Part shown: one piece after another, positions 13,618 through 18,474 of the stretch
Layout of the letters: each line of letters opens with the position of its first letter
How positions within the stretch are numbered: the first letter of the stretch is position 1
NCBI RefSeq assembly: GCF_900312745.1
Contig: NZ_OMPD01000013.1
Span: 62,001-126,000, forward strand
Direction: 5' to 3'
DNA length: 64,000 nucleotides
DNA from: Aquimarina sp. AU58
GTDB taxonomy: Bacteria > Bacteroidota > Bacteroidia > Flavobacteriales > Flavobacteriaceae
Position numbers and translations under genes: made by a program
The notes under the pieces: generated by a model
Told to the model about the DNA's origin: nothing
What the model saw: only the letters and a program-made list of their open reading frames with translations
Databases searched by the model: none

Positions 13618-13656
13618 CTAATACCTTTTGAACATGATGGTCTTTTGTTAGCCTAT

Positions 13657-14736
13657 TTAGTTTTTTAAAAATTCTTGAAAACTGTAGTATTTAATTGCTT
13701 TTTGTTTTAATGGGTTTAGACTCCAATCTTCCCATTTATTTTTATATGGATCATAACCACACTTTAAAGGTTTGGAATATAGATCTTCTGGATTATCTAC
13801 ATATGCTCTGCAATCAGTACAAACCCTACGATACTCACAATCTTTACAAGTGTCTATCAAATCTTTATGTATGTTCCAGTTTTTTTGAAAATTTAATGAT
13901 TTTGCAATCGTTTCTATATCATGCGTTTTAATATTTCCAAAAACATTTGACATAGAAGGGCAATTTTTGATATTTCCATTACTATCAATACTTAATTTTT
14001 TATTCAAACATGAATTAAATTTAAGGGATTCTGTAAAAACAGGTATTTTAATTGAAAATAATTTAGGATCAATAATCCCACAATGATCTTGATGATCTAT
14101 AACACGAGAAATCATCTGGATTTTAGGAGTATCAGTCTTTATTGTGGCGTTTTTTTCTTTGACAGAATGTACTATAAAAAGAACGATCCTAGGGTATTTA
14201 ATTGACAATCTCTCGATCTCTTTAGTATCTAATTCACTAGTGAAGGGTAAAAAAACGGTTATGCTTCTAATCACAGATTTAGCACAATGCCCTGCAAAAA
14301 ATGCCAGTTTATCCAAATCTATTGTCTTATAAAATCGGATTTCTACAAATTTGCATAATAAATTGGTTAGAGCAGTAGTTATTTTTTGTAAATCATCATT
14401 ATTCAACTGCTCCATTTCTATAATAGCATTATTGATATGTTCTGGTGATTTCCATTGTAGATTCAAATCAGGAAATCTATCTGGTTCATCTGTCCAAAAA
14501 CCAAGTTCATTTTTTTCAAGATATTCTAAATATTCCTGTACAGTCTCCCGATCTTCCTGCGAGAATTTTTTAATATCTTCTGGGGTATCACTATTCTTAG
14601 TTTTTTCAAGAAATTCTGCCAAGGGGAGTGGAATAGAATACACTTTACCTCGATGAAGATCACAAATCGTTGCCAAAGAAGCCCCTTTAACAATGATGCA
14701 ATTAGCAAATAACTTAAAACTCTTTTTGTTCATCAA
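13657..14736 (-). CDS. gwsS: Grasp-with-spasm system SPASM-domain peptide maturase
   Basis: A 359-residue protein with a C-terminal SPASM domain, the auxiliary Fe-S domain usually attached to radical-SAM peptide-modifying enzymes. Visible cysteines are Cys243, 259, 297, 300, 306, 309 and 326, with CKDCEYRRVCTDC as the core cluster motif and IDSNGNIKNCPSM before it. The N-terminal part (DLHRGKVYSIP, then an acidic helical stretch about 50-85) resembles the wHTH-like leader-binding segment of such enzymes. No CxxxCxxC radical-SAM motif exists anywhere upstream of the SPASM domain, so classical SAM chemistry is not expected. Last gene of the RiPP operon; its start overlaps the 77-residue gene by 23 bases. 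Confidence 0.88.
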   Translation of the reverse strand: MMNKKSFKLFANCIIVKGASLATICDLHRGKVYSIPLPLAEFLEKTKNSDTPEDIKKFSQEDRETVQEYLEYLEKNELGFWTDEPDRFPDLNLQWKSPEHINNAIIEMEQLNNDDLQKITTALTNLLCKFVEIRFYKTIDLDKLAFFAGHCAKSVIRSITVFLPFTSELDTKEIERLSIKYPRIVLFIVHSVKEKNATIKTDTPKIQMISRVIDHQDHCGIIDPKLFSIKIPVFTESLKFNSCLNKKLSIDSNGNIKNCPSMSNVFGNIKTHDIETIAKSLNFQKNWNIHKDLIDTCKDCEYRRVCTDCRAYVDNPEDLYSKPLKCGYDPYKNKWEDWSLNPLKQKAIKYYSFQEFLKN

Positions 14737-14947
14737 ATGTTAATAGTTTTGAAATTGGTTTTTGAGATAGTTTACATTCTACAAACTCTGAATGGTACAC
14801 CGGGATATGATCAAAAGATACTATACTAGAAGTCTCAGAAATATCTTCTGATATTTGTAATTCCTTTATCGTATGATTTCTAAGAAAAAAAGGTAATTTA
14901 TCTAGGTGTTTTTGAAAAAATATTTCTGTTTTATCCATCATTTTCAA
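14714..14947 (-). CDS. Small unknown protein of the RiPP operon, 77 residues
   Basis: Not recognised. The gene overlaps gwsG (17 bases at its start) and gwsS (23 bases at its end), so all three are translationally coupled. The product is soluble, with an amphipathic N-terminal helix (EIFFQKHLDKLPFFLRNHTI) and a C-terminal half rich in Ser, Glu and Ile. The start could be ATG at 14947 or an internal Met at residues 3 or 4. Position suggests a partner of the maturases, such as a leader-binding or chaperone subunit. It lacks a Gly-Gly leader site, so it is unlikely to be a second precursor. Confidence 0.7.
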   Translation of the reverse strand: MKMMDKTEIFFQKHLDKLPFFLRNHTIKELQISEDISETSSIVSFDHIPVYHSEFVECKLSQKPISKLLTFDEQKEF

Positions 14948-15920
14948 TTAAAGTTTTTGCAATCTCGTCCTCTAGGTAATAATTACAGGGTTTTGATGTA
15001 AAACCAAATTGCCCTGTAGGGTTTACCTCTAAGAACACGTATTTCTTATCTGGTGTTTTTATTAAATCGATAGAACCTGTATTTAGCTTCAACTCAGTCA
15101 TAAATTTTATTATTTTTTCTTCTATCTCCTTTGGTAGTAAATAAGGAACTCTTCTGTTTGGTCTTTCGTCATTATAATTTCTAAAATCAGTTTTGGTTTG
15201 CGAGTCTAATTGGGAAAACATAGCCATAGTATAAAACTTTCCTTCTAAATAAAAGACCCTGAGTTCGATATCCTTTTCGACATATGCTTGAAAAAAAGAT
15301 GGAAAAAAGATGGATGGTAATTCTTGTAACTGTTCAGGATTTACTTTTTCTGTTAGAAAATCAATTACACAATCTTTTTCCTGAAAAGAGATACCCTCAT
15401 ATAGTGGTTTTGCTATTATTTCTTTATGTTTTTCAACAAAAGACAGTAATTCTTTCTTTGAGTTTGTAAGTAAAGAATCGGGAATTTCTAATCCTATTTT
15501 TTTTGCCAAACGAAGGTTCGCAAACTTATCTACTTTTATGGCTTCAGGACTAGGGAGTTGATACGAATTTTTAAAATTATAAAAAATTTGTGCATTGATT
15601 TTTCCTATTTCTTGACTAAGACACCATCGCAACTCAATAAGGTTAATATTAGTGCAATTAATATCTTCAAATATTGGAGAAAACTGAGTTTTATGTTTTA
15701 AAAAGCCTTGAAACCATACACTTTTATATATATGTGTTTTATGTAAAGAATTAACCTGAGAATTACCCAACTGCATAGACCAATCATTACCTGAATCATA
15801 AAAGTCTTCTCCTGAAAAAAAATCAAATTTAGCATTATTATAAAGTAGCCAATCTATGACTTCTTCATAACTTTCGTTTTCTTCTTTGTAATTTTTGCAA
15901 ATTAATATCATAACAATCAA
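14931..15920 (-). CDS. gwsG: Grasp-with-spasm system ATP-grasp peptide ligase
   Basis: A 329-residue ATP-grasp ligase of the graspetide (MdnC/MvdD-like) group, which links Ser/Thr or Lys side chains to Asp/Glu side chains in a precursor peptide. Marks in order are the substrate-lobe region with WFQGFL (about 69-74), NLRLAKKIGLEIPDSL (136-150), the ATP-binding Lys171 in IIAKPL, IELRVFYLEG (218-227), the DFRNYN segment (245-250) and the metal-binding FLEVNPTGQFGF with Glu298 and Asn300. These residues are those expected in an active ligase. It follows the lipoprotein gene by 9 bases. Substrate is most likely the peptide at 16642-16806. Confidence 0.9.
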   Translation of the reverse strand: MIVMILICKNYKEENESYEEVIDWLLYNNAKFDFFSGEDFYDSGNDWSMQLGNSQVNSLHKTHIYKSVWFQGFLKHKTQFSPIFEDINCTNINLIELRWCLSQEIGKINAQIFYNFKNSYQLPSPEAIKVDKFANLRLAKKIGLEIPDSLLTNSKKELLSFVEKHKEIIAKPLYEGISFQEKDCVIDFLTEKVNPEQLQELPSIFFPSFFQAYVEKDIELRVFYLEGKFYTMAMFSQLDSQTKTDFRNYNDERPNRRVPYLLPKEIEEKIIKFMTELKLNTGSIDLIKTPDKKYVFLEVNPTGQFGFTSKPCNYYLEDEIAKTLIENDG

Positions 15921-15929
15921 AAAAGATTT

Positions 15930-16532
15930 CTATTGAGATTCGAATTCTCCTAACTCTAGTATTTCTAATAATTGTTTAATGTTCTCTTCATTACTAATGG
16001 CATGTGGATGACTTTTATCAAATTTATGCCGATGCATGTTATTAAGTAAAAAAGAAAAGTTGTCAGCAGTAATAAGGTTGTCTTTATAAGCTTGATATAG
16101 ATAAGGGAATAACTCTAATTGTTTTTCATAAGTGGGTTGATGCATACAAATTAACTCTATTGCCCCACTAATTCTATAATCATCAAGTTTAAACGTTGGA
16201 TATCCATGTGTTTCCAGATATTTTTTAGCTTTAATAAAGTTAATACTGTCAACATATATCATTCTATCCATATGCTCCTGATATTCATAAGAATTCATGT
16301 CATAATTATTTCTCTTTAAAATCTCATGCTCTCTATCAGAATTTCTTACATCTTGATCTTCATCGTATAAATCAATAAGAAACTGTTCTTTCTTTTCTTG
16401 GGTATCTAATGATAGCATTAAAGAATCCAAATCTTCTGTTTGGGGCTCATTAACCTTTAGTTTTGATTCTTTATTACAAGATAGCGTTACTACAATCACA
16501 AGTATAGTAAATAAGGTGCTCTTTGGTAGCAT
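15930..16532 (-). CDS. Lipoprotein of the RiPP operon, possibly DUF6624-like
   Basis: A 200-residue secreted lipoprotein: a short signal peptide ends at Cys19 in LVIVVTLSCNKES. The mature part is mostly helical and acidic, with conserved-looking TFKLDDYRISGAIELICMH and the closing segments NNMHRHKFDKSHP. I recall similar proteins under the DUF6624 name, but cannot confirm it. It lies between the precursor gene (109 bases upstream) and gwsG. A role in export, sensing or self-protection is conceivable, not shown. Confidence 0.7.
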   Translation of the reverse strand: MLPKSTLFTILVIVVTLSCNKESKLKVNEPQTEDLDSLMLSLDTQEKKEQFLIDLYDEDQDVRNSDREHEILKRNNYDMNSYEYQEHMDRMIYVDSINFIKAKKYLETHGYPTFKLDDYRISGAIELICMHQPTYEKQLELFPYLYQAYKDNLITADNFSFLLNNMHRHKFDKSHPHAISNEENIKQLLEILELGEFESQ

Positions 16533-16641
16533 AAGGACATGGTTTTAGTTTTACACTTTATATTACCTAATATTATAATTAAGTAAAGGCAATAGAGCTA
16601 AATACTATAGGATAGAATTAGCTCCAAGCCTTTTTAACTAT

Positions 16642-16806
16642 TTAACAACAACCTGTGTCCCTCCAATCACCATATTCTCGCGGTATGCTAAAAATCCAAC
16701 CTGGTTCAGTTTTCCAATGTCTTGTTTCTTGACCACATCCACCTTTAATCGTTAACGCATTGTTATCTTCAATAACATGTACATCTAAATCTTTAAGTTT
16801 TTTCAT
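16642..16806 (-). CDS. Grasp-with-spasm RiPP precursor peptide, 54 residues
   Basis: A short frame that starts MKKLKDLDVHVIEDNNALTI, continues to a Gly22-Gly23 processing site and ends in TGCC. It is the first gene of the minus-strand operon with the lipoprotein, gwsG and gwsS. The 31-residue core (24-54) contains possible ring donors Thr28, Thr33, Ser40, Thr51 and Lys32 and acceptors Glu27, Glu34, Glu44, Asp47 and Asp50, plus Cys24, 53 and 54 and three Trp. Ester or amide crosslinks between such pairs are the known product of graspetide ligases. The core has three Trp, unusual for a peptide this small. Assignment rests on context and the GG leader; no other candidate precursor lies near. Confidence 0.75.
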   Translation of the reverse strand: MKKLKDLDVHVIEDNNALTIKGGCGQETRHWKTEPGWIFSIPREYGDWRDTGCC

Positions 16807-17354
16807 TTATGAAAATTTTAATTAGTATTACCTACTCTATCAAGGCTTTTCGGTTTCCGCCATAAAATATAAGTCAATAGTATTGCATCGCTTTAAAAAA
16901 GCTTAACTAAAAAAATTATGTTTATGTAAGAAAATTCAATAGAATAGGGTAGGAATAATTCTATCGTCTTAAAATCAATACTAATATATAAAAAAAAAAT
17001 TATCACCTCATAATAACTTTTAAGATAATTTAATTCTTTTTGCAATGGGTATATAAAAAGAATATACATATCTGTTGTGCATTTCGAGTTAAAACAGTTT
17101 TCAAAATGTCTTATTCGAGTGATTTTTTGATAAAAAAATTGTACTTCGACTTCGCTCTGTAGGGCTATCGAGAACCTTTTAAAAGTTAAAATTCTTATTC
17201 TCGATACAAATTTTACTCATTTCAATCGTAAAATTTACTCGAATTGACAGAATTTTATCTAAATACACAACGGGTATACATTTAAATTTTCAACCTATAT
17301 AGCATACAAAAATGATTTTAAGTAAATTGCCAGTTCATAAATCATCTTTTTACC
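16807..17354. other. 548-base intergenic region with a repetitive element
   Basis: No reading frame that looks coding. It separates the RiPP operon (minus) from the hydrolase gene (plus) and contains the repeat-like block at 17063-17279. A possible but imperfect box, TATATTTT on the minus strand, lies upstream of the precursor; I do not call a promoter there. Confidence 0.5.
17063..17279. repeat. Candidate miniature inverted-repeat element
   Basis: The ends are imperfect inverted repeats: 17063-17084 includes CTGTTGTGCATTT and 17261-17279 includes AAATACACAACGGG (14 of 19 positions pair). Within it TATCGAGAA at 17166-17174 pairs with TTCTCGATA at 17198-17206. Such sequences with TCTCGATAC and TTACTCGAA strings are widespread between flavobacterial genes, in my recollection. 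Confidence 0.35.
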
Positions 17355-18296: not shown

Positions 18297-18385
18297 AACC
18301 ATTTCTCACATGAAATAGATTTTCTAATGCATAAATCCGGGTAATGACTTTAAGTTAAGAGTAGGGTTTAAAATCTCTTGTCACA

Positions 18386-18442
18386 CTGAGCCTGTCGAAG
18401 TGCTTTCAAATATGGGTTTTCAAATGTCTTCGACAGGCTCAG
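18386..18442. repeat. Dispersed inverted repeat
   Basis: CTGAGCCTGTCGAAG (18386-18400) and CTTCGACAGGCTCAG (18428-18442) are perfect 15-bp arms around a 27-base loop. This motif is a familiar flavobacterial intergenic repeat and may act as a bidirectional terminator between the convergent genes here. Confidence 0.7.
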
Positions 18443-18474
18443 ACTGACAATTAAAACCTTATCTACGTACGGGT

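Follow-up and report, generated by a model that had tools for sequence, protein, structure and literature searches.

A grasp-with-spasm operon of Aquimarina with a conserved 54-residue precursor and a SPASM protein lacking the radical SAM motif

We examined a minus-strand operon in a 64,000-nucleotide stretch of the Aquimarina sp. AU58 genome (contig NZ_OMPD01000013.1, positions 62,001 to 126,000; the whole stretch is referred to as the window). Judging from its sequence, the locus is a grasp-with-spasm operon, a graspetide kind that is already known and that corresponds to branch 5 of PMC8939145; group 14 of PMC13097080 is probably the same class. The operon very probably makes a ring-tied peptide from a precursor of 54 residues. 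In the reading that we favour and hold to be likely, a SPASM protein would hold the precursor leader, a small LPL-like protein would link it to an ATP-grasp ligase that forms esters between Thr/Ser and Asp/Glu, a C39 transporter encoded elsewhere would export the product, and a lipoprotein would be its partner. New elements are the co-variation of residues in the precursor, a SPASM protein without the radical S-adenosylmethionine (SAM) motif, a block of the operon that differs as a unit between relatives, and a DUF805b RNA in front of the precursor gene.

The gene order given in a preliminary description of this DNA, namely precursor (16642..16806), lipoprotein (15930..16532), ATP-grasp ligase (14931..15911), small protein (14714..14941) and SPASM protein (13657..14733), was confirmed by the coordinates. 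The tiny gaps and overlaps that it reported measure 109 nt between precursor and lipoprotein and 18 nt between lipoprotein and ligase (gaps), and 11 nt between ligase and small protein and 20 nt between small protein and SPASM protein (overlaps). Its naming of the class also held, as both NCBIfam cut-offs are exceeded: the ligase scores 253.4 bits with TIGR04192 (cut-off 230) and the SPASM protein, encoded next to the LPL-like gene, 343.8 bits with TIGR04193 (cut-off 175). The small protein has the 77 residues first assigned to it when read from an upstream TTG, and 75 when read from its own ATG. We surveyed 80 named grasp-with-spasm loci with rule-based classes (below, G labels denote genomes and L labels loci); some of these loci are cut by contig ends. 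The ligase gene lies close upstream of the SPASM gene in 79 of the 80, and the fetched DNA contains a Gly-Gly (GG) peptide in 59, a protein resembling cluster 23 in 41 and a C39-type protein in 30.

The precursor gene consists of a leader (16738-16806), a core (16645-16737) and a stop codon (16642-16644). As had been described, the leader ends in Gly22-Gly23, and the 31-residue core, CGQETRHWKTEPGWIFSIPREYGDWRDTGCC, contains three Thr, one Ser, one Lys, two Asp, three Glu and three Trp. The double Cys at its end was also correct; a third Cys, core residue 1, had been missed, and all three are invariant in seven aligned peptides. The peptide had been called unlisted, and we found no credible family match for it in NCBIfam, Pfam or PHROGs. 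PMC8939145 mentions an MKKL leader as well as a cluster, 1071, in which three Cys are conserved; these might be this family.

A protein search of 66 Aquimarina genomes, including that of AU58, yielded five further full-length relatives of the precursor (E ≤ 1.2e-7) and one decayed relative (E 0.003). Four of the five share a contig with both enzymes, and the relative in G177 adjoins the first part of a ligase gene at a contig break. Reading of neighbourhoods added precursors in L094 and L097, both Aquimarina, and in L112, a Dokdonia metagenome-assembled genome (MAG) with two copies, which brings the family to ten loci and 12 peptides. In nine contiguous loci of the clade the SPASM protein is at least 49% identical to that of the window; the G177 locus is split over two contigs and is not counted among the nine, nor is the decayed one in G453. 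When homologous loci were inspected for a different conserved peptide, the same family was found beside both enzymes in eight of the nine (window, G405, G407, G400, G454, L094, L097 and L112), which supports, at the level of sequence, the earlier proposal that the 54-residue peptide is the substrate. Conservation among relatives makes the precursor more than chance, and a fortuitous open reading frame (ORF) was ruled out by the conservation of the peptide beside the enzymes. The motif DWx[DE] followed by CC is confined to this family among 12,142 small ORFs from 182 partly overlapping loci. A profile of seven precursors, searched family-wide, matched at E ≤ 0.01 in three of 397 genomes: AU58 itself, G177 and, weakly, G320 (E 0.0098). 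A second match in the AU58 genome (C2:1410682, E 0.27) was attributed to chance. Visual inspection places it after an EF-Tu-like gene, in overlap with a tRNA-like sequence, and sister genomes contain comparable weak matches that start at query residue 7 or 8 and run to residue 37. Locus L088 (G453:C8:90500-97500) is decayed, with a peptide frame that lacks the usual start, an intact lipoprotein gene, and ligase and SPASM genes reduced to a 69-residue remnant.

All 12 peptides carry C(x)G-x-x-[T/S] at the start of the core and DWxD near its end, followed by CC. The Thr or Ser at Gly+3 and both Asp residues of DWxD are thus present in 12 of 12, as candidate hydroxyl acceptor and acid donor, and the link predicted for every member would join Thr28 (core Thr5) to Asp47 or Asp50. 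Nine of the 12 have Thr or Ser at Gly+1, and the same nine have Glu at Asp+4. The remaining three have neither, with Q and T at these two positions in the window, R and D in L094 and E and T in L097 (Fisher p 0.0045 for the co-occurrence, uncorrected for kinship). This joint presence and absence suggests that the two residues are ring partners, and a second ester between them is predicted in the nine peptides and not in that of the window. We infer from the sequences a pattern of two esters, one of them optional, with a single ester predicted for the window peptide. The ligase would activate the Asp or Glu on the C-terminal side and esterify Thr or Ser near the N terminus of the core; a disulfide is probably formed from among the three Cys. 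Among the open-licence literature searched, we found no characterised grasp-with-spasm product; the specific prediction of co-varying ring residues in this precursor family therefore offers a direct test.

The nearest solved sequences to the ligase are AMdnB (E 1.2e-29) and CdnC (E 3.9e-25), and the operon thus shares a homologous ATP-grasp ligase with microviridins and chryseoviridin. It differs from them in adding the SPASM and LPL-like proteins and in the three Cys of its precursor; the microviridin leader motif also differs from the leader in the window. Rings of the microviridin type pair Thr/Ser with Asp/Glu (PMC8939145). A small ORF lies between the ligase and SPASM genes in 70 of the 80 named loci, in 43 of them with a KPISK-like motif. 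The small protein of the window (LPFFL ... KPISK) has LPF in its head and its G177 relative LPL in an alignment of 12, where the KPISK tail is also observed. By its position directly before the SPASM gene and its LP[LF] head, it appears to fit the LPL small-protein family that section 6 of PMC8939145 reads as auxiliary. It is possible that this protein acts as an adaptor that links the SPASM protein to the ligase. Identical LPL-like proteins were observed in L117 and L119, MAGs labelled Phycisphaerales and Chitinophagaceae, probably through a binning error.

The structure model of the SPASM protein (predicted local distance difference test score 90) points to an N-terminal domain resembling the leader-binding RiPP recognition element (RRE; residues 4-80; RiPP, ribosomally synthesized and post-translationally modified peptide), followed by a barrel and the SPASM cysteines. 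Through this domain the protein would hold the leader, MKKLKDL...ALTIKGG. We aligned 63 SPASM proteins, comprising that of the window and those of 62 of the 80 named loci (the other 18 were set aside, 12 of them by choice and six at a later stage). Eight SPASM Cys, at residues 218-325, are invariant in all 63, and 56 match PF13186. The motif CxxxCxxC is absent from all 63, and none matches PF04055 at E ≤ 0.01. The modelled fold, N-terminal domain, barrel and SPASM, is that of the radical SAM/SPASM maturases CteB and SuiB, from which the protein differs in lacking CxxxCxxC. A profile of the SPASM family had no match among the sequences of the Protein Data Bank (PDB). The closest named SPASM protein found, from A. 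atlantica 22II-S11-z7 (G405), is 94% identical; very near records were possibly left out. Rosaritide MirB/MirC (PMC13097080) similarly combines a graspetide ligase with a partner protein whose N-terminal domain is weakly RRE-like, but the partner there resembles a peptidyl-prolyl isomerase. If the function we propose is true, a radical SAM fold has been recruited as a non-catalytic leader holder.

The lipoprotein is of the cluster 23 kind. Its lipobox Cys19 and residues D59, Q60, R63, D95 and H131 are invariant in the seven aligned lipoproteins, and the lipobox Cys places it outside the cytoplasm. It scores 15.2 bits with PF20329 (DUF6624), under the cut-off of 27, and eight of 25 relatives match this family at E ≤ 0.1; on these comparisons it appears to be a distant DUF6624 relative. 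Its all-helical model gave a best E of 0.57 against the PDB, and no fold was named. We regard the lipoprotein as a candidate cognate surface partner of the peptide, most likely for immunity. A hairpin in the interval between the precursor and lipoprotein genes (16575..16641, minus strand), perhaps a partial terminator or processing site, has a window z of -2.55, with a range of -2.55 to -6.06 across six loci folded, and at least three different stem sequences occur among the six. A scan for consensus terminators, which missed this hairpin, did not exceed shuffled sequence (1 versus 1.5), nor did a sigma-70 scan (20 versus 21.6).

In A. atlantica (G405), the operon lies at the same genomic site as in the window. 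Synonymous divergence (dS) between the two is 0.27-0.41 in the SPASM gene and flanks, 1.30 in the LPL-like gene and 1.36 in the ligase gene, and is saturated in the lipoprotein gene and the core; nonsynonymous divergence (dN) of the core is 0.82. The precursor leaders are 96% identical and the cores 39%. Identity drops close to the codons for Gly-Gly and returns to 100% in the final 48 nt of the LPL-like gene, so that core, lipoprotein, ligase and the head of the LPL-like protein differ as a unit (14762..16737, approximate edges). Few proteins of the operon are as divergent as the lipoprotein, whose difference accompanies that of the core. The nearest relative of the window lipoprotein is in L094 (66%) and that of the A. 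atlantica lipoprotein in G453 (76%), and both types therefore exist in the genus. This pattern suggests that core, lipoprotein, ligase and most of the LPL-like protein were swapped as a block, which, if true, suggests a route for rapid core diversification at these loci. As a control, the second grasp-with-spasm locus of AU58 and L110 are 93.9% and 95.0% identical over stretches of 5.5 and 5.0 kb.

The occurrence of the whole cassette (13622..17279) also varies. It is missing from G458, labelled as the same species, in which the flanks are 33 bases apart, and no TIGR04193 match was found in that genome at E ≤ 0.001. G407, G400, G177, G453 and L097 carry the cassette at a different site, always with the same two neighbour genes, RNase H-like and purN-like by eye. 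The stretch at about 17068-17258 of the window is an interspersed repeat with ten further partial matches in the sister genome G458. Loci L098 (396-4146) and L112 (3027-4289) adjoin phage-type integrases, L098 also helix-turn-helix and Rep_1 genes, and are probable mobile elements.

Several alternatives concern which protein acts and on what. If the SPASM protein were an active radical SAM maturase that forms thioether or C-C links at Cys or Trp, with the ligase secondary, this would fit the eight invariant SPASM Cys and the three invariant Cys of the precursor; PMC8939145 regards the family as radical SAM enzymes and proposes thioethers. The lack of CxxxCxxC and of PF04055 matches throughout the 63 proteins makes this improbable, and links at Trp are further disfavoured as Trp48 alone of the three Trp is invariant in the seven aligned peptides. 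The LPL-like protein, rather than the 54-residue peptide, could be the substrate, being small, equipped with acidic and hydroxyl residues and matched by a small ORF at the same position in 70 of the 80 loci. We rejected this idea and give it hardly any credence, because the protein has no GG site and its LP and KPISK motifs are shared by proteins well outside Aquimarina, whereas a core should vary; the auxiliary role given to the family in PMC8939145 agrees with this rejection.

The lipoprotein and the divergent block also admit other explanations. That the lipoprotein is a tailoring enzyme and not an immunity protein is a serious though less favoured possibility: its invariant D, Q, R, D and H would suit catalysis, and the two papers propose that DUF6624 may be a biosynthetic enzyme (PMC13097080) and that there is some enzymatic activity (PMC8939145). 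An extracytoplasmic location, indicated by the lipobox Cys in seven of seven, and high divergence in step with the core speak for the surface partner instead. The peptide could also be a signal (pherotype) with the lipoprotein as its receptor, rather than a bacteriocin with its immunity protein. Either role is compatible with core, ligase and lipoprotein differing together while the flanks stay constant, but the operon shows no evident gene for a receptor or regulator (no search for regulators was made outside it), and we consider a signal rather unlikely. Fast evolution under diversifying selection, instead of recombination, would account for the high core dN and the graded block edges; it is very doubtful, since synonymous sites are near or at saturation inside the block only and the two lipoproteins have different nearest relatives.

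Some observations weigh against the ester-forming, block-swapped system that we favour. The pairing of Gly+1 with Asp+4 comes from 12 peptides that are related to one another, a decayed locus contributing one of them, and that perhaps reflect two or three evolutionary events, and the p value therefore overstates it; moreover, L094 has an acidic residue, Asp, at Asp+4. The block difference is known from one genome pair, the leader has a dS of 0.70 (on only 13 sites), above the flanks, and dS is lower at the two ends of the ligase gene (0.78 and 0.64) than in its middle, so that the block edges are not sharp. The SPASM protein could perform other chemistry with its clusters. In L098, a member of the same clade, enzymes and lipoprotein are present and a precursor was not found. 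Finally, no transporter gene is present in the operon. A C39 transporter encoded elsewhere would cut at Gly-Gly and export the peptide, and the AU58 genome has four C39 matches, one within its other complete grasp-with-spasm locus (C2:1528209) and another close to a third SPASM match, an incomplete one on C14. That third match (L090, G000:C14:286257-286943) lies without a TIGR04192 ligase, of which the genome has only two, and has DUF805b upstream and C39 downstream. Compared with other TIGR04192/TIGR04193 systems, the window operon shares the ligase, the small protein before the SPASM gene, the cluster-23-like lipoprotein and the upstream GG precursor; it differs in having no transporter and a precursor with no NCBIfam or Pfam match. 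In L098 (7237-8757), a C39 peptidase fused to a VKOR domain is encoded directly 3' of the SPASM gene, a hint that thiols of the product may be oxidised.

A DUF805b RNA (RF02914; 16829..16863, minus strand), a candidate cis-regulatory element, lies 22 nt upstream of the precursor ATG and scores 46.2 bits in Rfam (gathering cut-off 35.6, E 4.8e-11). We know of no role for DUF805b. A DUF805b-like element is visible in all eight rows of an alignment of upstream regions, with G453 under the Rfam cut-off, and eight of 14 further loci scanned exceed it, including the second AU58 locus; the Rfam scan gave no match in L088, L098, L112, L102, L107 or L129. A match to AaHKsRNA41 at 18326-18455 was far under the cut-off and was ignored. 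The AU58 genome has 14 DUF805b matches, 12 over the cut-off. Behind the element, an ORF was found in 37 of 43 loci in this and sister genomes: 17 GG peptides, 11 lipoproteins, three other exported proteins and six others, three of which resemble GG/GA peptides and one a lipoprotein by eye (the classes follow a rough rule with visible errors, and many loci are mutual orthologues). NCBIfam matched none of eight proteins encoded behind DUF805b elements, a set that includes the precursor from the second AU58 locus. The element also precedes other GG-leader peptides and lipoproteins in Aquimarina (L189, L192, L196 and others). At least 15 of 50 SPASM matches (from 53) have DUF805b within 5 kb, a count in which element positions were preselected as nearby and which is no test.

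In the 80 loci, a strict core pattern of the element matched 19 times, in 18 loci, whereas five shuffles gave 0.4 matches on average. An RNA model, built partly from these matches, gave 27 matches at E < 1e-3 in 23 loci, 17 of the 27 being in its training set. All except that in L104 (26 of 27) are followed, at a distance of 15-49 nt, by a small ORF that resembles a precursor and has a strict GG in 22 cases. Of the ten outside the training set, nine stand in front of an ORF of this kind, which has a strict GG in seven cases; one of these, L110, is nearly identical to a training sequence. At E < 1e-3 the model detected nothing in 57 of the 80, and DUF805b is therefore not universal at these loci. 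On 29 sequences, all five stem pairs change on both sides, with a covariation of 0.448 versus 0.183 in shuffles (reached in 0 of 500, relatedness not removed); weaker statistics are the number of such pairs (23/500) and the pair types (167/500), and the outermost pair forms in ten of 25. An association of DUF805b with RiPP precursors was not found in the open-licence literature searched; the available parts of PMC8939145 and PMC13097080 do not mention the RNA element, the missing radical SAM motif or the RRE of the SPASM protein. We tentatively suggest that DUF805b is a dedicated control element for exported-peptide and lipoprotein genes in Bacteroidota. The grasp-with-spasm operons that it controls would then be a peptide/immunity (or pherotype) system with swapped alleles: a protein derived from radical SAM enzymes, having lost its catalytic cluster, would retain the leader, and core, ligase and lipoprotein would be exchanged as a block. 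If so, the DUF805b RNA gains a coherent target set.

Of the 141 small ORFs with a GG at grasp-with-spasm loci, 17 encode an EF-hand/dockerin-like loop, DxNxDGxxxxxE, compared with 0.2 in shuffles. Precursor ORFs bearing the loop occur in L100, L101, L103, L106, L115, L122, L125, L131, L162 and L169, and our guess from the motif is that they may bind calcium.

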